Below are positions 26,103 through 35,189 of a stretch of DNA of 64,000 nucleotides, in pieces. The stretch comes from Nakamurella aerolata (GTDB lineage Bacteria > Actinomycetota > Actinomycetes > Mycobacteriales > Nakamurellaceae). The stretch lies in contig NZ_JABEND010000002.1 in NCBI RefSeq assembly GCF_013002705.1, positions 434,001-498,000 on the forward strand. Reading direction: 5' to 3'. The position numbers and the translations under genes are program-made. The notes under the pieces are model-generated. The model searched no databases and was not told the DNA's origin. It was given only the letters and a program-made list of their open reading frames with translations. The number at the start of each line of letters is the position of its first letter. Position 1 is the first letter of the stretch.

Positions 26103-27623
26103 TCAGCCGAGCTTGGCCAGCAGCTCGGCCTGCTTGCGCACCGGCCCGATCACCATCTTGTTGACGTCCGGTTTCGGTGCCACCAGTGCTCTCGCGGTGA
26201 ACAGGAAGGCGTAGCGGCCCACGTTGCCGGCACAGACGTAGGTGGTGGCCGGCACATCGGTCGGATCGACCGAGCTGCTGGTGGCCGCGAAGCACACGGT
26301 GTCCTTGGTCGGTGCCTTCACCGCGATGCGTTGGCCGGCAATGGTTTTCTGCTCGTAGGCGAGCCGGTAGAGGCCTTCGCGCAGCGAGACGGCGGCCGCC
26401 GGGTGCACGGTGCGGTACACCCGGGCGCCGCCGAGCGCAATGGTGTCCACCTCTGCCTTGTGGATCAGTTTCTGCTCCTCAGGGCTGGTCGCGTCGTCGA
26501 TGGTGAGCGCCGGTGCGGCGGCGGCCGGGAAGGCGCCGAGCTTGCCGCCGGGGTAGCGGGCGCCGCCGGGCCCGGCCGCAATGGTGTGGGCGGCCAGCTT
26601 GGTGGGATCTGGGTTGAGCGTCGCCAGGCTTCCCGGCGGGGTCGGGCGGAAACCGGTCAGTGCGCGGCTCACCCGCTGCTGCAGTCCGGCGAGCACCCGC
26701 ACGGTGGGTGGGCCGGCCCCGCCGTCGGGGGAGTCCACGATCGACGTGGAGTGGTCCAGCACCAGCACCAGCCGGTCCTGCCGCCTGATCGTTGACAGGT
26801 AAAAGCGCGGATCAACCTCGAAAGCCCGTGCGGCGCCACCGAAACTGCGGCTGGCGCCGATGGCGAACGATCGGACGTCGGTCAGTTTCTGGCGCCGCTT
26901 GGCGTCGAGGGCCGACACCGCGGTGCTGGCCGATGCGACGTCCTGGTACTCGAGCACCGAAAGGGTCAGCACGGCAGCGTTCTGCGGGTTCTCGAAGTAA
27001 TAGCAGTCGCGGTAGCCGGCGACCAGCCCGCGCTGGGTGGCGCCACCCTTGGGGTCGCGGACGATGAGCTCGGCGCCGGAACGGTACGGCGCATCGTGGC
27101 CGCCGCACGGAATCCAGCCGGTTCCGGCCAGCCCGGGGGCGGCGGCGGTCAGCAGCCGGGCGGCCTCGGCGCCGGCGCCGCGGGCTTGCTCCTTGCTGAG
27201 TGCCGGGACGGGCTTGGGCGGCTGAGTGCCGTCGACGCGCGATGTTCGCGCTGACGTTGCAGCGGTGGGTGGCCCGGATGCCGGGGCCAAGGTGGCCGCG
27301 CCGGCCGACCTGGCAGCGGAAGCGGTCCGGCCGGCGTCGCCGGTTGCCTTTCCCGACGGGGTGGACGCGGCCGCGGCTGTCGCCGGGGCAGCAGGGTCGG
27401 CCCCGGTAGCCGCTGTCGCCGGGGCAGCGGGGTCGGCCCCGGTAGTCGCCGCGGCGGCACGGTCGGCCCCGGTAACCGCTTGGCCGGCACCGCCGGCCGC
27501 TGCGGGCGCGGGCGCTGCGCTGTCCGGCACCGCGCTGTCCGGCACCGCGCACCCGCCGGCCCCGATCACGGCGGCCGCGAGGGCCGCGAGTACGGCTCGG
27601 CGGGGCGACTCGAAGGTTTTCAT
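26103..27623 (-). CDS. lipoprotein, DUF7373-like
   Basis: A 506-residue exported lipoprotein with lipobox IGAGGC (Cys about 25). An Ala/Pro/Thr/Gly-rich region follows to about residue 130, then a folded domain from SKEQARGAGAEAARLLTAAAPGL to the end. Cysteines occur at IPCGGHD, YRDCYYF, TVCFAA and TYVCAGN. The domain pattern recalls the two-part DUF7373 lipoproteins common in mycobacteria, whose function is unknown. The low-complexity part has a 36-bp tandem repeat (27376-27447). ATG 27623 is chosen over an adjacent TTG. It is divergent from the glycosyltransferase operon and separated by 235 bp, so it might share its control. Confidence 0.7.
   Translation of the reverse strand: MKTFESPRRAVLAALAAAVIGAGGCAVPDSAVPDSAAPAPAAAGGAGQAVTGADRAAAATTGADPAAPATAATGADPAAPATAAAASTPSGKATGDAGRTASAARSAGAATLAPASGPPTAATSARTSRVDGTQPPKPVPALSKEQARGAGAEAARLLTAAAPGLAGTGWIPCGGHDAPYRSGAELIVRDPKGGATQRGLVAGYRDCYYFENPQNAAVLTLSVLEYQDVASASTAVSALDAKRRQKLTDVRSFAIGASRSFGGAARAFEVDPRFYLSTIRRQDRLVLVLDHSTSIVDSPDGGAGPPTVRVLAGLQQRVSRALTGFRPTPPGSLATLNPDPTKLAAHTIAAGPGGARYPGGKLGAFPAAAAPALTIDDATSPEEQKLIHKAEVDTIALGGARVYRTVHPAAAVSLREGLYRLAYEQKTIAGQRIAVKAPTKDTVCFAATSSSVDPTDVPATTYVCAGNVGRYAFLFTARALVAPKPDVNKMVIGPVRKQAELLAKLG
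27376..27480. repeat. 36-bp in-frame tandem repeat within the lipoprotein gene
   Basis: Two near-identical 36-bp copies (27376-27411 and 27412-27447), followed by a partial third, encode a 12-residue AATTGADPAAPA-type unit on the minus strand. The repeat lengthens the presumed cell-wall linker. Confidence 0.75.
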
Positions 27624-27858
27624 CAATCACACCGACGTGGCCGTCTCGCGATCCGTTCCGTGCCGGAACGAGCTGGAGCGGAAATATCGGAACCGGATCC
27701 AGTGACGCTGCGTCAGTGGCAGTACCACCAACGGTGCATGCCCGGGGAGAACCGGGCTGCGCGGGGGACACCATCCGTGATCACCGTCGGTGCCGGCGCC
27801 CGGGCGGTTCAGCTTCGGCCGTCGCCGACTCTGACACCGAAAGGACGGTTCGGCAGCG

Positions 27859-29751
27859 ATGGACACCCCGAACGCGATGCCGGCGTTGATGGAGCATTCG
27901 TTCCGCAGCGGCATCGGCGAAGCCATCTCGAACTTCAGCTTCAGCGACATCGACTGGCACTCCGTGTGGCGGTGGTTCCCGATCGCGGTGGCCGGCATTG
28001 TGGTGTGGGCACTCTGGCTCTACCGGTTCATCCTGTCGAGGCGGGCCAAGCCGATCGTCACCAGCTTCCGGACCAGCACGTCTGTTGTGGTGCCCTCGTT
28101 CCATGAAGACGTGCCGATCCTGATGCGTTGCCTCGGTACCTGGCTGGCGCAGAACCCCTCTGAGGTCATCATCGTTCTCGACGTCGCCGATACCGAGGCA
28201 CTGCAGGCCATTCAGCAGCTCAACGATCCACGGGTCCGCCCGATCATGTTCCGGCACGCGGGCAAACGCTCGGCGCTCGGCGTCGGCATCAGAGCCGCGC
28301 GCGGAGAACTGTTGGTGCTGACCGACTCCGACACCCAGTGGGAGCCGGAGCTGTTGCAGAACGTACAGATGCCGTTCGCCGATCCGCAGGTCGGTGCCTG
28401 CTCGACGCAGCAGAACGTCTACGAGCGCAACACCAGCATCTGGCGGCGGATCGCCGACTGGCTGGTCAACCTGCGTTACTACGACTACGTCCCCGCGATG
28501 GGCAGAGCCGGTGCGGTGGCTTGTGTCTCCGGCCGTACCGGCGTCTACCGCCGCAGCGTGGTGCTGCCGGTGCTCGACAATCTGGAGAACGAGTTCTTCC
28601 TCGGCAGGCGGTGCGTCTCCGGGGACGACGGGCGGCTCACCTGGCTGGTGATCGCCTCCGGCTACAAGACGGTGCACCAGTCTTCGGCCAAAGCATTGTC
28701 GATGTTCCCGGCCAGCTTCCGGGCGTTCGTCAAGCAACGGGTGCGCTGGTCGCGCAACAGTTATCGGTGCTATCTGACCGCCGTCTACAAGGGCTGGCTG
28801 TGGCGGGTTCCGTTCGTCACCAAGGTGACCGTGCTGCAGATCTTGTTGACGCCGGTCACCATGGCAATCACCTTGGGATACATCGCTTTCAGCCGCATCG
28901 ACGGCACCATGCTCAGCATCGGCATGACGGTCGGCTGGGTGCTGCTGGGCCGGGGTATCCGCGGGGCGTCGCATCTGCGCCGGCATCCGCTGGAGATCTT
29001 CCTGCTGCCGGTGACGGCGCTGGTGGTCATCATGGTCGCCCTGCCGATCAAGCTGTACGCGTTCGTCACCATGAACAAGCAGGGCTGGCTGACCCGGCAC
29101 GCCGACCGGGTCGGTGGCGACGGCCAGAACGCCGCATCGTTGAACCGGTCGGCCGGTGCCGCGCCGCAGCGCGTGAAACAGGTTCTTCCGCAGCCTGTTT
29201 CACCGGTGCCGGTCGGTCCGGTCGAGCATGCTGTCCCGCCGCACGCCACCGGGCAACGAGCTGTTCCGCAGCGACCCGTCCCGCAGCGACCGGCTGCGCA
29301 GCGGCCCGTCCCGCAACGGCCGCTGCCGGTGCGCCCGGTCCAGCCCCGCCTTGCGGGGCACGGGCCGACGCCGCACCGACCGGCACCGGCGACAGTCGCC
29401 GGCCAGTCACAGCACGGGGCGCAGCCGAGGTTGCCGCACCAGCGCGACCGGGCGCAGCACCGCGCCGCTGAGCGTCCCGGGCGTCCGGTTGCCGACGCAA
29501 ACTCCGGCGCCGGCGACCAGACCATGCGGATCGCGGCGAACCGGATTCCGGTGCTGGCGACGGCCGAATCCGCTTCGCATGCCGGGCCCGCCGCCATCGC
29601 AGGACCGGCGAGCTCAGCGCGCAACCACCCGGTCCAGGCCGCTCGGGCGCCCCAGGCCGCTGCACCCAAGAGGATCGAATCCGGCCCGCAGGCCGACGAT
29701 CCCGACATCACCCGACGTGTTCCGATCCGACTCAGGGGGACCTCCAGATGA
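27859..29751 (+). CDS. processive family-2 glycosyltransferase (polysaccharide synthase)
   Basis: A 630-residue membrane protein. One membrane segment lies at residues ~41-59, then a cytosolic GT2 domain with VVVPSFHED, the DxD-type TDSD (D156, D158), SGDD (D256, D257) and the processivity motif QRVRW (293-297). Three more hydrophobic segments follow at ~325-345, 355-372 and 388-410, ending MNKQGWLTR. This order matches hyaluronan/chitin/alginate-type synthases (HasA, NodC, Alg8) that polymerise and export a sugar chain. Residues after ~420 are a long Pro/Gln/Arg/Ala-rich tail with QRPVPQRP repeats. The stop overlaps the next ATG by 4 nt. It is the first gene of a four-gene operon. The sugar substrate is not predictable from motifs alone. 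Confidence 0.86.
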   Translation: MDTPNAMPALMEHSFRSGIGEAISNFSFSDIDWHSVWRWFPIAVAGIVVWALWLYRFILSRRAKPIVTSFRTSTSVVVPSFHEDVPILMRCLGTWLAQNPSEVIIVLDVADTEALQAIQQLNDPRVRPIMFRHAGKRSALGVGIRAARGELLVLTDSDTQWEPELLQNVQMPFADPQVGACSTQQNVYERNTSIWRRIADWLVNLRYYDYVPAMGRAGAVACVSGRTGVYRRSVVLPVLDNLENEFFLGRRCVSGDDGRLTWLVIASGYKTVHQSSAKALSMFPASFRAFVKQRVRWSRNSYRCYLTAVYKGWLWRVPFVTKVTVLQILLTPVTMAITLGYIAFSRIDGTMLSIGMTVGWVLLGRGIRGASHLRRHPLEIFLLPVTALVVIMVALPIKLYAFVTMNKQGWLTRHADRVGGDGQNAASLNRSAGAAPQRVKQVLPQPVSPVPVGPVEHAVPPHATGQRAVPQRPVPQRPAAQRPVPQRPLPVRPVQPRLAGHGPTPHRPAPATVAGQSQHGAQPRLPHQRDRAQHRAAERPGRPVADANSGAGDQTMRIAANRIPVLATAESASHAGPAAIAGPASSARNHPVQAARAPQAAAPKRIESGPQADDPDITRRVPIRLRGTSR

Positions 29752-32243
29752 CAACGCCAGCACCGCGCCGGATCGGCCGTGGCCGGGATGGTCTCGGCGT
29801 CAACGGCCGGCGACGACCCGCGCGACGGCTCGCCCTGGCTGCTGCGCTCACCGGGCTGACGGTGGCGGCGGTCATCGCAACCGCCCCGGCAGCATCGGCG
29901 CATGCCAATGGCGACAACGGTTCTGCCGCCGCCGGTCACGCTCGCCGGACCGCCCCGGCGCCGGCGGTGGTCGCGCCGCCGACCGGTACCGCCCCACGCA
30001 CACCAGCACAGCCCGCCGAGGGAACCACGGCGAAGCGCCCGCAAGCTTCCGGCAGTCAAACGTCCGCCAGTAGGCCGACCGGCAGCCAAGCAACCGGCAG
30101 CCAGGCAACCGGCGGCCAAGCAACCGGGAGCCAAGCAAGCGGCACCAAAGCTCCGGGCAACGGCACGGGAGAGACCGGCACGGCCGAGACCGGCACGGCC
30201 GAGACCGGCACGGGGGAGACCGGCACGGGGGAGACCGGCACCGGTGAGACGACCGGTGCCGTCCCGGCATCGACCGCACCGGTCCCCAGCAACGGCGTCG
30301 GAGTACCACCGGTTCCGGCCGGCGGGAGCGGCCCCGGCGACGGCGCCGACGGGACCGCGCAGGGAGTCGATCAAGAGGTCACCGGCGAACGCCGCCCGTA
30401 CCAGGGCGATCCCGAGGCCGAGTCGGCCCTGGTGGAGCGCGAGGACGACCGGCTGGCCGAAGCCCGCACCGTCGCGTCGCTCTCGCGCTGGTCAAAGGTT
30501 CAGCTCATCAGCCCGTATCGGATCGCCGGCAACGGCTCGTACACCCTGGTCCTCACCACCAGGGAAACCCCTTACACCATCGAGGATCTGCTCAAGCTTG
30601 CGCCGCAGACATTCGTGCGGCAGACCGACGGCGCCTACCTGCTCAGCGAGAACATCGTGATCGAGGCCGGCGCCGTGCTCAAGCTGCAGGCGCCGACCCG
30701 GCTGGTCATCAAGCTGGCCAGCGACGCCAAGGGATTCGTGTCGATCGTCAACTACGGAGGTCGCCTGGAGATCGCCGGCACCGACGCCACGCCGGTGCAG
30801 ATCACCTCGTGGGACCGCGCCAACGCAAAGCCGGACAGTACCACCACCGACGGACGCGGCTACCTGCGGTCGTTGGGTGGCCAGGTGGACTTCCAGCACG
30901 TGACGTTCGAGCAGCTCGGCTTCTGGAGCGGGCGTACCGGTGGCGTATCGCTGACCGGTACCGACCGGCCGACACCGGGAGCGCTCGACCGCACCGGCAA
31001 GGACATCGGCGAGCAGCAGCGCAAGGAGCGCGGCGCCGCCACCGCGCCGGGCACCGGCACCCCCGGACAGCCGGGAACCGATCAAACCGGTTCCACCGCA
31101 GCAGGTTCCAAGGACAAAGTCGCACCGGCCGGAAAGATCGAGATTCCCGAGGTGACCGGCGACCAGCCCGAGTACTCGTACGTCTCGGCCGCGATCTCCG
31201 ACGCCACCTTCTCGGACAATGTGTTCGGACTGTTCCTGTCCGGAGCCAACGGTGTCGACATCCGCAACAGCACCGTGCAGCGCAGCCAGGTCGACGGCAT
31301 CGTCATGCACCGCTACGTCACCAACATGGTGCTGCAGAGCTCGGTGACCCAGGACAACGCCGGCGACGGAGTGATTCTGTCAAGGGCCACCACCGGAGTC
31401 GTGCTCAGCGAGGTGACCGCGCAACGCAACTCGCGCAACGGTTTGAGCATGATCGGGCTGCCGCTCGCCACCGGGCCCAGCGCCACCGGAACCGCCACCG
31501 GCGACTACGGCAACAACTCCGTTGTCAGCGGGCGGTTCACCAGCAACGGCCGTTACGGCATCGAGGTGATCGGCGGCCGGACCATCGGTGTGCAGGCAAA
31601 TGTGGTGTCCGGCAACGCGATGGGCGTGGTGGTGCGGACCGGTGCCAACGGCGTCAGGGTGGTCGGCAACCAGGTGACCGGCAGCGCCAAGCAAGGCATC
31701 GTGGTGCGCGACCAGGTCAGCGGCGCCGTCGTCACCGGGAACTCGGTGGACGGCGGGCGAACCAGCGTCTACGTCCGCGACGGCAGCGCCGCGGTGGAAC
31801 GCAACACCCTGACCAACGCCGAACTGCATGCGGTCTCACTGATCGGTTCGGTGCGCGGCAGCACCGTCATGAACAACACCATCGCCGGCAAGGGGCCCAG
31901 CGCGGTGGATGCCGCCCGCAGCACCGGAGCCGACACTCGCAGCTTCGTCAACAACACCGACGGCTGGTCCGACACCACGCCGTGGTGGGTGACGCTGAAG
32001 AAGTACCTGCAGCCGATGACGATGATCTGGCTGGCGCTGCTCAGCCTGCTGTTGATCACCGCCTTGCGCGGGCTGCGTGCCCGCCGGCAGCAGCGGCACC
32101 CCTACGCGGACAAGCGTGCGGTGACCACCGACGACGACGTGGTGCTCCCGGCGCCGCCGGGCGCCCCCATGCCGCTCCACCCGCCGCGTCCGGCGCAGAG
32201 CCTGCGCCCGGCCGGTGCCGGCATTGCCGGCCGGGTCCGGTGA
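29748..32243 (+). CDS. membrane-anchored right-handed beta-helix protein (AlgG/CASH-like)
   Basis: An 831-residue exported protein with a signal peptide (ALAAALTGLTVAAVIATAPAASA). A disordered region with two repeat types follows (TGSQA units near 30078-30145; ETGTG units near 30171-30255). Residues ~255-700 are a right-handed parallel beta-helix with turns such as DGIVMHRYVTNMVLQSSVTQDNAGDGVILSR and several GNxVxG turns. A membrane segment (TMIWLALLSLLLITALRG, about 755-775) and a basic tail end the protein. The D/HGI(V/I)xxR turns recall the CASH-type helix of AlgG-like C5-epimerases; this link is inferred. It overlaps the glycosyltransferase stop and the next GTG (GTGA), so it probably tailors the polymer made upstream. 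Confidence 0.8.
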   Translation: MTTPAPRRIGRGRDGLGVNGRRRPARRLALAAALTGLTVAAVIATAPAASAHANGDNGSAAAGHARRTAPAPAVVAPPTGTAPRTPAQPAEGTTAKRPQASGSQTSASRPTGSQATGSQATGGQATGSQASGTKAPGNGTGETGTAETGTAETGTGETGTGETGTGETTGAVPASTAPVPSNGVGVPPVPAGGSGPGDGADGTAQGVDQEVTGERRPYQGDPEAESALVEREDDRLAEARTVASLSRWSKVQLISPYRIAGNGSYTLVLTTRETPYTIEDLLKLAPQTFVRQTDGAYLLSENIVIEAGAVLKLQAPTRLVIKLASDAKGFVSIVNYGGRLEIAGTDATPVQITSWDRANAKPDSTTTDGRGYLRSLGGQVDFQHVTFEQLGFWSGRTGGVSLTGTDRPTPGALDRTGKDIGEQQRKERGAATAPGTGTPGQPGTDQTGSTAAGSKDKVAPAGKIEIPEVTGDQPEYSYVSAAISDATFSDNVFGLFLSGANGVDIRNSTVQRSQVDGIVMHRYVTNMVLQSSVTQDNAGDGVILSRATTGVVLSEVTAQRNSRNGLSMIGLPLATGPSATGTATGDYGNNSVVSGRFTSNGRYGIEVIGGRTIGVQANVVSGNAMGVVVRTGANGVRVVGNQVTGSAKQGIVVRDQVSGAVVTGNSVDGGRTSVYVRDGSAAVERNTLTNAELHAVSLIGSVRGSTVMNNTIAGKGPSAVDAARSTGADTRSFVNNTDGWSDTTPWWVTLKKYLQPMTMIWLALLSLLLITALRGLRARRQQRHPYADKRAVTTDDDVVLPAPPGAPMPLHPPRPAQSLRPAGAGIAGRVR

Positions 32244-33616
32244 GCAGCGTGCGCCGGCCGCGGCTGGCAGCCGTGCTCGGGCTGGCCGCCAGCGTGGCGC
32301 TGGCGGCGGGGGCGGTAGTGCTGGTGCAAGCCAACCCTGGGGTGCTGGCAGCGCCGACCGAGCGTGGAGTAGCTGTCACCGCATGGCAACCATCGCCGCC
32401 GCCCAGCCTGGCCAGCCGGGTGTCGCCGAGCGCGGCGCCGTCCGGCTTGCCAGCCGTACCACCGGACTCCGGCCGGGTGCCGCGCCCCGTCGAACCGCTG
32501 CCCAGTGGTCCCACCGGCGCTCCGGCGTCGTCTCCCGGTGCCGGGCAGGGCACGCCGGCGCCCGACGCGCCGAAGACCGGGGCAGGCAACCCGTGGGAGC
32601 GACAGACCGAGGCCGCCAAGGACGCCGTCAACCAGCCTGGAATCGAGCGAACCGCACGACCGGGCGCCGTTGCCACCCCCGTCGTGCAACAGATCCGTTG
32701 CCCCGCAGGAGGTACCGGCGTCGGCAGTGCGGAAGAGCTGCAGGCCGCGTTGGCCGGGGCACTGCCCGGATCGGTGATCAAACTCCGCAAGGGTGTCTAC
32801 CCGGGGACCTTCACCACCAGCGTGTCGGGGACGCCGGAGCGGCCGATCTGGTTGTGCGGCAACGCCGACAGCATCCTGGACGCCGGCGGCGCCGATGGCT
32901 ACGGCCTGCATCTGGACGGTGCCAAGTACTGGCGCCTGAGCGGATTCGCGATGCGGAACGCACAGAAGGGCGTTGTCACCGACCAGACTACCGGGACCGT
33001 GATCAGCGGGCTACGGATCACCAACACCGGCGACGAGGCCATCCATCTGCGCAAGAACTCCACCAAGAACCTGGTGACGGGAAACGTTGTCGACGGCACC
33101 GGATTCCGGCGTGCCACCTTCGGCGAGGGCATCTACATCGGCACCGCGGAGAGCAACTGGTGCACGATCACCCAGTGCCGCCCGGACCGCAGTGACTACA
33201 ACACCATTGCCGGTAACACCGTCAGCCGGACCGCGGCCGAGGCGGTCGACATCAAAGAAGGAACCGTCGGCGGACTGCTGATCGGCAACAGCTTCGACGG
33301 CAAGGGCACGACCGCTGCCGACTCGCTGGTCGACGTCAAGGGGACGGCGTGGACCATCAAGAACAACACCGGCCGACATGCCCCGCTCGACGGCATGCAG
33401 ACCCACCAGATCCTCGATCGGTGGGGCGAGCGAAACCTGTTCACCGGCAACACGATCGCCATGCCGGCCAAGCCCGCGGCTGCGGTGGTGCAGGCCGCCG
33501 GTACCGCGGATCGTTACGGTATCGCCGTCCGGCCGGCCGCCGGCAACGTGATTGCCTGCGACAACAGCGTGAGCGGCGCCGATGTCCCGCTCAGCAACAT
33601 CGGCTGCCGGCGATGA
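32240..33616 (+). CDS. anchored right-handed beta-helix protein, lyase/epimerase type (paralogue A)
   Basis: A 458-residue protein with an N-terminal membrane anchor or signal (LAAVLGLAASVALAAGAVVLV), a Pro/Ala/Ser-rich spacer and, from about residue 150, a beta-helix. The helix opens with CPAGGTGVGSAEELQAALAGALPGSVIKLRKGVYPGTF, the typical first coil of PL6/pectate-lyase-like helices. Notable conserved parts are NTGDEAIHLR, FGEGIYIG, a CxxxxC pair in NWCTITQC and AVDIKEGTVGG. GTG 32240 overlaps the preceding stop by 4 nt. The next gene is a close paralogue. It likely acts on a polysaccharide outside the membrane; whether as lyase, epimerase or binding protein is open. Confidence 0.78.
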   Translation: MSSVRRPRLAAVLGLAASVALAAGAVVLVQANPGVLAAPTERGVAVTAWQPSPPPSLASRVSPSAAPSGLPAVPPDSGRVPRPVEPLPSGPTGAPASSPGAGQGTPAPDAPKTGAGNPWERQTEAAKDAVNQPGIERTARPGAVATPVVQQIRCPAGGTGVGSAEELQAALAGALPGSVIKLRKGVYPGTFTTSVSGTPERPIWLCGNADSILDAGGADGYGLHLDGAKYWRLSGFAMRNAQKGVVTDQTTGTVISGLRITNTGDEAIHLRKNSTKNLVTGNVVDGTGFRRATFGEGIYIGTAESNWCTITQCRPDRSDYNTIAGNTVSRTAAEAVDIKEGTVGGLLIGNSFDGKGTTAADSLVDVKGTAWTIKNNTGRHAPLDGMQTHQILDRWGERNLFTGNTIAMPAKPAAAVVQAAGTADRYGIAVRPAAGNVIACDNSVSGADVPLSNIGCRR

Positions 33617-33737
33617 ATCGCGGGCAAAGCCGTCAACGGTTCGGCGTTGTCGGCCACACTGTTCACACCCGAGTGCAGCTTCCCGCTGACCGCCGAACCA
33701 CGCCTGTACTCCACCGACCCAGCAGAGGATCTGGCAC

Positions 33738-35189
33738 ATGACGAGCAACTACCCGCAGCCCGGACCGCCACCGCGCCGGCGGGTTCCCGGTGCGGTGATC
33801 GGTTTCGGTGTCGGCGTTGTGGTGACGGCGCTCGCCGCCGGTGGCATTGCCATGGCGGTCAACGGATCCGACGACGGACCCAACCCGGCTGCCGCCACCA
33901 CCACGCCCGTCGGGTCCATCCCGTTGACCCCCCGAACCCAGGGCAGTTTCCCGATGACGCAGGGCGGCGCCGACCCGACGCCGCAGACCGGCGCGCTCGG
34001 CGGGGGCGCCCAGCCCGGCAGTGTCGGCAGCGGCAACAGCAACGGCAACGGCAACGGCACGGAAGACCCCACCGGAACGGCCGGCAGCGAGACGAGCAAG
34101 AACGGCACCGAGAGCACCGACGGCAGTACCGCAGGCGGCACCGGTAACGACCAGAAGGATCAGGAGGATCAGGAGGAGCAGCGGGACGGAAAGCCGCAGA
34201 ACACACCGGGTATCGAGGCCACCGCGAAACCGAGCACCGACGGTCTGCCGGCTGTGCAGATGGTGGAGTGTCCCGCCGGTGGCACCGCGGTGAGCAACGC
34301 CGACACCCTGAAGGCGGCGCTCGGCGCGGCCAGACCAGGGGCGGTGATCCGGCTGCAGGACGGGGTATACGAAGGCACCTTCACCCTCACCGCCTCCGGT
34401 ACCAGCGAGCAACCCATCTGGGTGTGCGGCGGACGCGGAGCCGTGATCGACGCCGGCGGAGTGAAGTCCGGTTACGGGTTCCATCTCGACAAGGCGAGCA
34501 ATGTCCGGCTGGTCGGGTTCGCCGTGCAGAACGCGCAGAAGGGCGTGATCGGCGACGGCACGTCGGGCAGCATCATCCAGCAGCTCAAGGTCTCGCAGAC
34601 CGGGGACGAAGCCATCCACCTGCGGGCCGCCTCGCAGCGCAACCTGGTGATCGGCAACGAGGTGTCCGACACCGGCAACCGCCGGGACAAGTTCGGCGAG
34701 GGCATCTACATCGGTTCCGCGGTCAGCAACTGGTGCAGGTACGGCGGCTGCCAACCGGACCGCAGCGACTTCAATGTGGTTGCCGGCAATCAGATCTCGG
34801 ACACCACCTCGGAAGCCGTCGACATCAAAGAGGGCACCGTCGGCGGCCTGTTGATCGGGAACAGCTTTGACGGTTCGGGCACCACCGCGGCGGACTCCTG
34901 GGTCGACGTCAAGGGCACGGCCTGGACCATCAAGGACAACACCGGGCGGGTGGCACCCCTTGACGGCTTCCAGACCCACCAGATCGAGGAGCGGTGGGGC
35001 GAGCGAAACCTGTTCACCGGCAACAAGATCGACGCGACCAACCCACCGGCGCCGGAGCAGGCGGACGAGAACGACGGTGAGCGTTTCGGGATCGCCCTGC
35101 GCCCGGACGGCGGCAACACCGTGCTGTGCAACAACACCGTGACCGGCCCAGGGGTGCCGCTGAGCAATGTCGAGTGCCGGCGCGGTTGA
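33738..35189 (+). CDS. anchored right-handed beta-helix protein, lyase/epimerase type (paralogue B)
   Basis: A 483-residue protein with one N-terminal membrane segment (VIGFGVGVVVTALAAGGIAMAV) after a short cytosolic Pro-rich start. A Gly/Asn/Thr/Asp/Glu-rich spacer follows, then a beta-helix nearly matching paralogue A. Shared parts include CPAGGTAV, QTGDEAIHLR, KFGEGIYIG, the CxxxxC pair NWCRYGGC, AVDIKEGTVGGLLIGNSFDG and RWGERNLFTGN. It follows paralogue A by 121 bp and closes the operon. The strongly conserved D/E-rich turns in both copies mark a common active or binding groove. The enzymatic role is inferred from fold and context only. Confidence 0.78.
   Translation: MTSNYPQPGPPPRRRVPGAVIGFGVGVVVTALAAGGIAMAVNGSDDGPNPAAATTTPVGSIPLTPRTQGSFPMTQGGADPTPQTGALGGGAQPGSVGSGNSNGNGNGTEDPTGTAGSETSKNGTESTDGSTAGGTGNDQKDQEDQEEQRDGKPQNTPGIEATAKPSTDGLPAVQMVECPAGGTAVSNADTLKAALGAARPGAVIRLQDGVYEGTFTLTASGTSEQPIWVCGGRGAVIDAGGVKSGYGFHLDKASNVRLVGFAVQNAQKGVIGDGTSGSIIQQLKVSQTGDEAIHLRAASQRNLVIGNEVSDTGNRRDKFGEGIYIGSAVSNWCRYGGCQPDRSDFNVVAGNQISDTTSEAVDIKEGTVGGLLIGNSFDGSGTTAADSWVDVKGTAWTIKDNTGRVAPLDGFQTHQIEERWGERNLFTGNKIDATNPPAPEQADENDGERFGIALRPDGGNTVLCNNTVTGPGVPLSNVECRRG

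Follow-up and report, generated by a model that had tools for sequence, protein, structure and literature searches.

A recurrent actinobacterial operon of a GT2 synthase, an AlgG-like beta-helix and PL31-type lyases, a candidate for polyuronate synthesis and tailoring

Which polymer, if any, is made by a gene block that joins a polysaccharide synthase to three beta-helix proteins in an actinobacterium? The question is raised by a locus of Nakamurella aerolata, contained in a 64,000-nt stretch (positions 434001-498000 of contig NZ_JABEND010000002.1, hereafter the window) of a 4.35 Mb assembly in 22 contigs, 95% complete. Four forward-strand genes follow one another. g1 (27859..29751, 630 aa, ATG start) codes for a processive glycosyltransferase (GT) of family GT2, a polysaccharide synthase with a hyaluronan-synthase fold; g2 (29748..32243, 831 aa, ATG start) for a secreted, C-terminally anchored right-handed beta-helix with the AlgG fold, predicted to be a polyuronate C5-epimerase; g3 (32240..33616, 458 aa, GTG start) and its paralogue g4 (33738..35189, 483 aa, ATG start) for PL31-type beta-helix lyases. 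The g1/g2 overlap reads ATGA, the g2/g3 overlap GTGA, and a gap of 121 bp separates g3 from g4: the four reading frames, two 4-nt overlaps and single gap of the initial annotation were borne out exactly. The same annotation described g2, g3 and g4 as three membrane-anchored beta-helix proteins. Pfam beta-helix matches above cut-off and hydropathy segments in all three agree with this, but the proteins do not form one family, g2 being AlgG-like, g3 and g4 PL31-like.

The reading that we consider moderately probable is that of a synthase-dependent exopolysaccharide operon, by which a polyuronate would be synthesised from UDP-glucuronic acid (UDP-GlcA) and tailored. The product would most likely be glucuronan-like, possibly C5-epimerised, and then trimmed. 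This reading rests on computation, that is, on gene order and its recurrence, protein families, folds, catalytic residues and dehydrogenase type.

Relatives of g1 numbered 95 in a scan; the 80 loci retained from them (cited by L numbers) have best-segment identities of 57-77%. Since these loci were picked by g1 alone, the neighbouring genes give an unbiased test. All but one are labelled as actinobacteria, of many families; carriers include Streptomyces, Cellulomonas, Actinoplanes, Actinomadura, Microbacterium and Curtobacterium. An AlgG-like helix gene lies directly after the GT in all 78 loci with at least 1 kb downstream; the remaining two (L028, L076) had less room and were left out, and in four of the 78 (L012, L021, L036, L037) the g2 match overlaps the GT match. 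A PL31-like lyase is present in all 67 loci with at least 4.5 kb of room, downstream in 66 and upstream in one (L077). In the same 67 loci, a gene for UDP-glucose 6-dehydrogenase (UGD) is found downstream in 55; when the whole locus is counted, the number is 58. Between the end of the lyase match and the start of the UGD match lies a median of 110 bp (n = 50). The association of GT, helix and lyase is not due to chance. Recurrence of the gene order had been set in advance as one of two checks on the initial proposal, and the order does recur. The exact four-gene arrangement, with two lyases, is also found elsewhere, in two Cryobacterium loci (L029, L032) which, like the window, show GT-helix-lyase-lyase without UGD, but it is a minority version: the commonest operon elsewhere is GT, helix, one lyase and UGD, from which the window differs by its second lyase and by a dehydrogenase located on another contig.

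The gene neighbours also bear on the idea of a catabolic locus for plant or algal polyuronates, with a GT unrelated to it. Other accounts of PL31 enzymes concern polysaccharide degradation, and one actinobacterial member has been interpreted as pointing to the breakdown of cellouronate (PMC8371330). One of the rarer neighbour clusters, moreover, is ABC-transporter ATPase-like, in 6 of the 80 loci, most of the rarer clusters being without annotation. The neighbours common to most loci are instead the synthase and a precursor-forming dehydrogenase, and a catabolic role appears extremely unlikely.

Variants of the block were observed. Two g2 copies are present in 14 of the 80 loci, and at least two same-strand lyases in 13, numbers that may be undercounts because of the overlap rule used. 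A Herbiconiux locus (L003:1104-13372) carries two tandem GT-helix-lyase blocks, the first followed and the second preceded by a UGD of its own. In Pseudonocardia CNS-139, whose GT is the nearest on the tree, helix and lyase genes are split across frames (L006:10854-13792), by sequencing error or decay. The GT on a contig labelled Stenotrophomonas maltophilia (L028, JACEFY010000030.1) is almost the same as the one of Microbacterium saccharophilum; the contig is probably a contamination.

For g1, the DSD, GDD and QRVRW motifs pointed out by the initial annotation were all found, and three membrane segments exceed the hydropathy threshold used. The seven key GT residues checked are unchanged in 32 out of 32 aligned rows, window included. 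When VIA-align was applied to the ranking given by Foldseek, hyaluronan synthases proved to be the closest solved structures; g1 has the class I hyaluronan synthase fold together with the GT2 motifs, at about 22% identity to the Chlorella virus hyaluronan synthase in the structural alignment. The best NCBIfam model is NodC (TIGR04242; 141 bits, below its cut-off of 550). A family trait is the motif SGRT, where the two aligned hyaluronan synthases read SGPL or GGPL. Its conservation was followed in a wider set, composed of the 80 loci and 34 more that were fetched: 102 loci carry a GT at least 54% identical to g1, although identical GT pairs (L053/L129 and L042/L131) make them fewer than 102 independent genomes. 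SGRT is found in 100 of these relatives, SGRS in one, and one shows no pattern match.

Such a synthase might also make a hyaluronan-like heteropolymer of GlcA and N-acetylglucosamine (GlcNAc), as one bifunctional enzyme, with the helix proteins acting as modifier and lyases. Its closest solved structures and its top NCBIfam model are in favour of this, and the UGD of the operon would serve hyaluronan equally well. We hold it to be unlikely, as the lyase family is reported to act on beta-1,4-linked homouronans, and SGRT replaces SGPL/GGPL, although the meaning of this motif is not established.

The C-terminal tail of g1 (29146-29751, residues ~430 on) is of low complexity, rich in Pro, Arg and Ala; g1 extends for 220 residues past the conserved NKQGW, the maximum being 128 in 95 measured relatives (7 were not measurable).

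The monomer is indicated by the dehydrogenase. The enzyme from the operon of locus L014 scores 346 bits to the UDP-glucose dehydrogenase 4a7p vs 189 to the GDP-mannose dehydrogenase 1mfz, and its best specific NCBIfam model, below cut-off, is TuaD. A dehydrogenase is present in 73 of the 102 loci of the wider set: a UGD-type query gives the best match in all 73, and the N-x-FLA motif is found in 72, the remaining one (L139) being a weak match of 151 bits. In the N. aerolata genome, PF00984 detects one dehydrogenase only, located on contig 22; it is of UGD type and 40% identical to the operon type. The same search, which detected 13 of 14 controls, found no second, AlgD-type dehydrogenase in this assembly, about 95% complete; with this caveat, GDP-mannuronate is therefore unlikely to be available. 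PilZ (PF07238), a trait of Alg44, has no match in the host genome, by a search that detected 5 of 14 controls; the AlgX-type acetylation protein PF16822 has none either, but neither has it in any control, which makes this negative uninformative.

The dehydrogenase and PilZ results weaken the alternative of a Gram-positive alginate operon, producing polymannuronate/guluronate from GDP-mannuronate. An AlgG-like g2 would fit it, as would lyases similar to PsAly, an enzyme that prefers polymannuronate; the UGD type of every locus dehydrogenase and of the only one in the host, the lack of a PilZ match there (both to be read with the completeness of the assembly) and the hyaluronan-synthase-like g1 make it very unlikely. 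From the analogy with Alg8 and AlgG drawn in the initial annotation, layout and g2 fold are retained, whereas the likely monomer is another: the system works like an alginate system, but is probably not one.

g3 and g4 are 56% identical, and each features one N-terminal membrane segment by hydropathy. At E 0.1, the only solved chain matched by either is the alginate lyase PsAly (PDB 6kfn; E 1.4e-41 for g3, E 8.8e-33 for g4, the latter aligned residue by residue). PsAly is described as endolytic with a preference for polymannuronate, and seven of its active-site residues are listed as fully conserved, along with its cation ligands (PMC6796002). The positions scored, chain and paper numbering differing by 34, were the catalytic Tyr184 and Lys221, then Lys128, His154, Arg156, Asp250 and Lys252, and Glu181, Glu216 and Asp219 of the first cation site. 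In g4 the set is complete (K268, H294, R296, E321, Y324, E359, D362, K364, D390, K392), as it is in 41 of the 45 aligned rows, g3 and g4 among them; the other four (L016, L022, L029, L055) have one or two changes each. At the second cation site, Tyr244 of PsAly is not kept in g4. PL31 is said to include a beta-1,4-glucuronan lyase, in the context of Streptomyces PL31 (PMC8371330), and both alginate and glucuronan lyase activity are cited for an enzyme of Cellulophaga that shares 61% identity with a GH5+PL31 enzyme (PMC13235733). By similarity and residue set, g3 and g4 are thus putative PL31-type lyases, predicted to act on a polyuronate by beta-elimination.

g2 features a signal-like N-terminal hydropathy segment (residues 27-52) and a C-terminal one (753-778). 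Its top structural match is AlgG, whose fold covers the helix, and AlgG and AlgE epimerases fill the first seven ranks by Z; the next fold neighbour is NosD, a helix not known to be an enzyme. By HMM alignment to 4nk8/4ozz, the His of the AlgG DPH motif corresponds to His521 (codon 31308..31310, forward strand), kept in 48 of 51 homologues, and the AlgG Arg in 'GIIISREV' to Arg546 (codon 31383..31385, forward strand), kept in 46 of 51; these are the residues to which catalytic roles are assigned in AlgG. D154, D159, R161, R165 and W184 are the same in 51 out of 51. As judged from fold and residues, g2 is probably a polyuronate C5-epimerase. The helix proteins belong to enzyme families with conserved grooves, as the second check set by the initial annotation asked.

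It is at C2 that mannuronate and glucuronate are distinct, and the C5 proton is abstracted both in C5 inversion and in beta-elimination; alginate-type helices could therefore be re-used on a glucuronate chain. The steps may be pictured as follows, where polymer identity, linkage, homopolymer status, epimerase activity, export route and order of action are what we infer. UGD, encoded within the operon in most relatives and elsewhere in the genome of N. aerolata, would supply UDP-GlcA. g1 would polymerise GlcA, probably into a beta-1,4 homopolymer, and the chain would leave through the membrane channel of g1 itself, as in hyaluronan synthase. Anchored outside the membrane, g2 would meet the emerging chain first, and probably invert C5 in some residues, from GlcA to L-iduronate (IdoA). 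g3 and g4, tethered on long linkers, would then cut the chain by beta-elimination, which may serve to set its length, to release it or to clear misplaced chains. The earlier suggestion of a surface polymer, made and then modified or trimmed at the membrane, is supported by the recurring synthase-helix-lyase block and by the enzyme families found. A more specific form of this reading, in which a dedicated glucuronan synthase works with a beta-helix C5-epimerase turning part of the chain to L-iduronate, is put forward tentatively, as possible but doubtful. Its GlcA/IdoA polymer would recall dermatan and heparin in backbone chemistry, produced by an alginate-style machine in Gram-positive cells, and an AlgG-fold enzyme would act on a polymer other than alginate.

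Several points weigh against a polyuronate made from UDP-GlcA and tailored by these proteins. In the literature covered, no carrier is credited with a polymer. Hyaluronan synthase uses two sugars, so that a GlcA/GlcNAc heteropolymer fits as well, and NodC, the top model of g1 even if below cut-off, is a chitooligosaccharide synthase. The window operon has no dehydrogenase, and the locus is also without one in 9 of the 67 relatives with room. PsAly, the nearest solved relative of the lyases, prefers polymannuronate. As for g2, the score to the NCBIfam AlgG model NF038177 is 19.4 bits (cut-off 700), His is missing in 3 and Arg in 5 of the 51 homologues, and the DPH(D) motif is absent: the window reads GIVMHRYV, where the 'DP' before the His is replaced. 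The residue losses and the missing 'DP', together with the rank of NosD and the presence of two g2 copies in some carriers, could also mean that g2 is a non-catalytic guide for chain binding or export, or itself a lyase, the rest of the pathway being unchanged. Such a role is a substantial possibility, though less likely than not, given the conservation of His, Arg and the five invariant residues, and the seven epimerases ranked ahead of any other fold.

A clean split between operon classes, with DPH in one and HR in the other, was considered and dropped, as a motif scan showed mixed states. Among the flagged loci inspected, L132, L135 and L141 are without DPH at the site (the inspection covered flagged loci other than those from L003 to L082), and L136, which is of the window type (within the stretch fetched, a lyase is present and a dehydrogenase is not), keeps YGFDPHD.

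The closest known layout is that of the alg operon of Pseudomonas and Azotobacter, which holds a GT2 synthase (alg8), algG, a lyase (algL) and a dehydrogenase, with further partners. Shared with it are the four kinds of protein in one operon, the lyase and the AlgG-fold helix included, and an extracytoplasmic tailoring. The operon described here differs by UGD in place of AlgD, by the PL31-type lyase (AlgL belongs to another PL family), by the lack of a PilZ protein among those found in the host genome, by the membrane segments on helix and lyases, and by the single-membrane host. Class I hyaluronan synthases (Chlorella virus, Xenopus) and NodC resemble g1 in fold, in the DSD/GDD/Q(R/Q)xRW motifs and in the partnership with UGD; low identity to the viral enzyme, SGRT, and the AlgG-like and PL31-type partners set g1 apart from the former. 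PsAly and the Streptomyces PL31 glucuronan lyase share with g3 and g4 the beta-helix bearing the catalytic and first cation-site set of PsAly; unlike PsAly, g3 and g4 have an N-terminal membrane segment, a long linker and a place in a synthase operon, the PsAly gene adjoining chitinase genes (PMC6796002). The proposed product corresponds to the glucuronan of Sinorhizobium meliloti M5N1CS and Peteryoungia rosettiformans, which, unlike the present case, comes from Gram-negatives and is O-acetylated. S. meliloti makes glucuronan lyase during fermentation (PMC10180729).

As regards novelty, the layout is alginate-style, but synthase type, lyase and monomer are different. A survey of synthase-dependent operons in 1758 genomes placed most alginate operons in Pseudomonas, and reported pel-like and PNAG operons in Gram-positives (PMC7112194). 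In the openly licensed PMC literature, no description of the present operon was found among the papers listed, as judged from titles and abstract starts. The biosynthesis genes and loci of glucuronan were called unknown in 2023 (PMC10180729); the word 'epimerase' is absent from the main text of that paper. If right, our reading would provide candidates for these genes, and would assign to actinobacterial PL31 enzymes a role in making and trimming a polymer. Since carriers span several culturable genera, suitable hosts should exist among them; an operon that does epimerise could also supply enzymes for producing GlcA/IdoA polymers.

The distribution of the block is patchy. No g1 relatives were found in 16 genus-mates at E 1e-40. 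At this threshold 11 out of 200 genomes of the order match g1, five of them, host included, with at least 55% identity; at E 1e-60, with at most four candidates scored per genome, 5 of 396 genomes of the phylum match, that of N. aerolata included. A sister GT, used as query at E 1e-60 on a sample of the class, matches in 34 of 394 genomes; of 20 class regions fetched, 16 have a window-type GT, 3 a sister-type one, and 1 neither partner gene. On the right flank lies an aldo-keto reductase, of which 16 of 17 genomes in the genus contain relatives. The left flank is an open reading frame directly upstream of g1, on the reverse strand (26103..27626, 507 aa), lipoprotein-like, for which neither Pfam nor NCBIfam gives a match at E 0.1, and the 16 genus-mates give none at E 1e-10. 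Flank searches among the genus genomes did not locate an empty insertion site. The patchy spread is consistent with gain and loss of the block.

More distant relatives are found in sister operons. Of 12 such GT loci (28-45% identical to g1, or closer to the GT of L096), 8 carry a nucleotide-sugar dehydrogenase and 4 have none in the fetched stretch. L096 (7193-13454), from a genome of the same taxonomic order, comprises a nucleotide-sugar dehydrogenase, a GT2 (36% to g1), an AlgG-like helix with the canonical DPH motif (103 bits to the NCBIfam AlgG model, cut-off 700) and an acyltransferase-3/SGNH protein: judged by these genes, this actinobacterium seems to have a cluster of alginate type. 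In L102 (8320-10764) the AlgG-like helix and the GT2 synthase form one 814-aa protein, and a neighbouring gene codes for a nucleotide-sugar dehydrogenase. L096, L102, L103 and L126-L128 have related GTs and similar dehydrogenases; the assignment of these operons to mannuronate was tried and is not established, as it rests on an active-site motif and on which query matched, and the L103 dehydrogenase scores 145 bits to an archaeal UDP-glucose dehydrogenase vs 139 to GDP-mannose dehydrogenase. When the dehydrogenase labels are mapped on a tree of 115 GTs, 2 changes suffice, vs 5.9 in shuffles; the tree is a quick one, with several long branches, and near-copies favour such clustering. A third variant (L098:5176-11882 and L105:6292-12969) is composed of an acyltransferase, a GT2 (30% to g1), a linker-bearing GH26-like protein and a UGD, 64-66% identical to the operon-type UGD.

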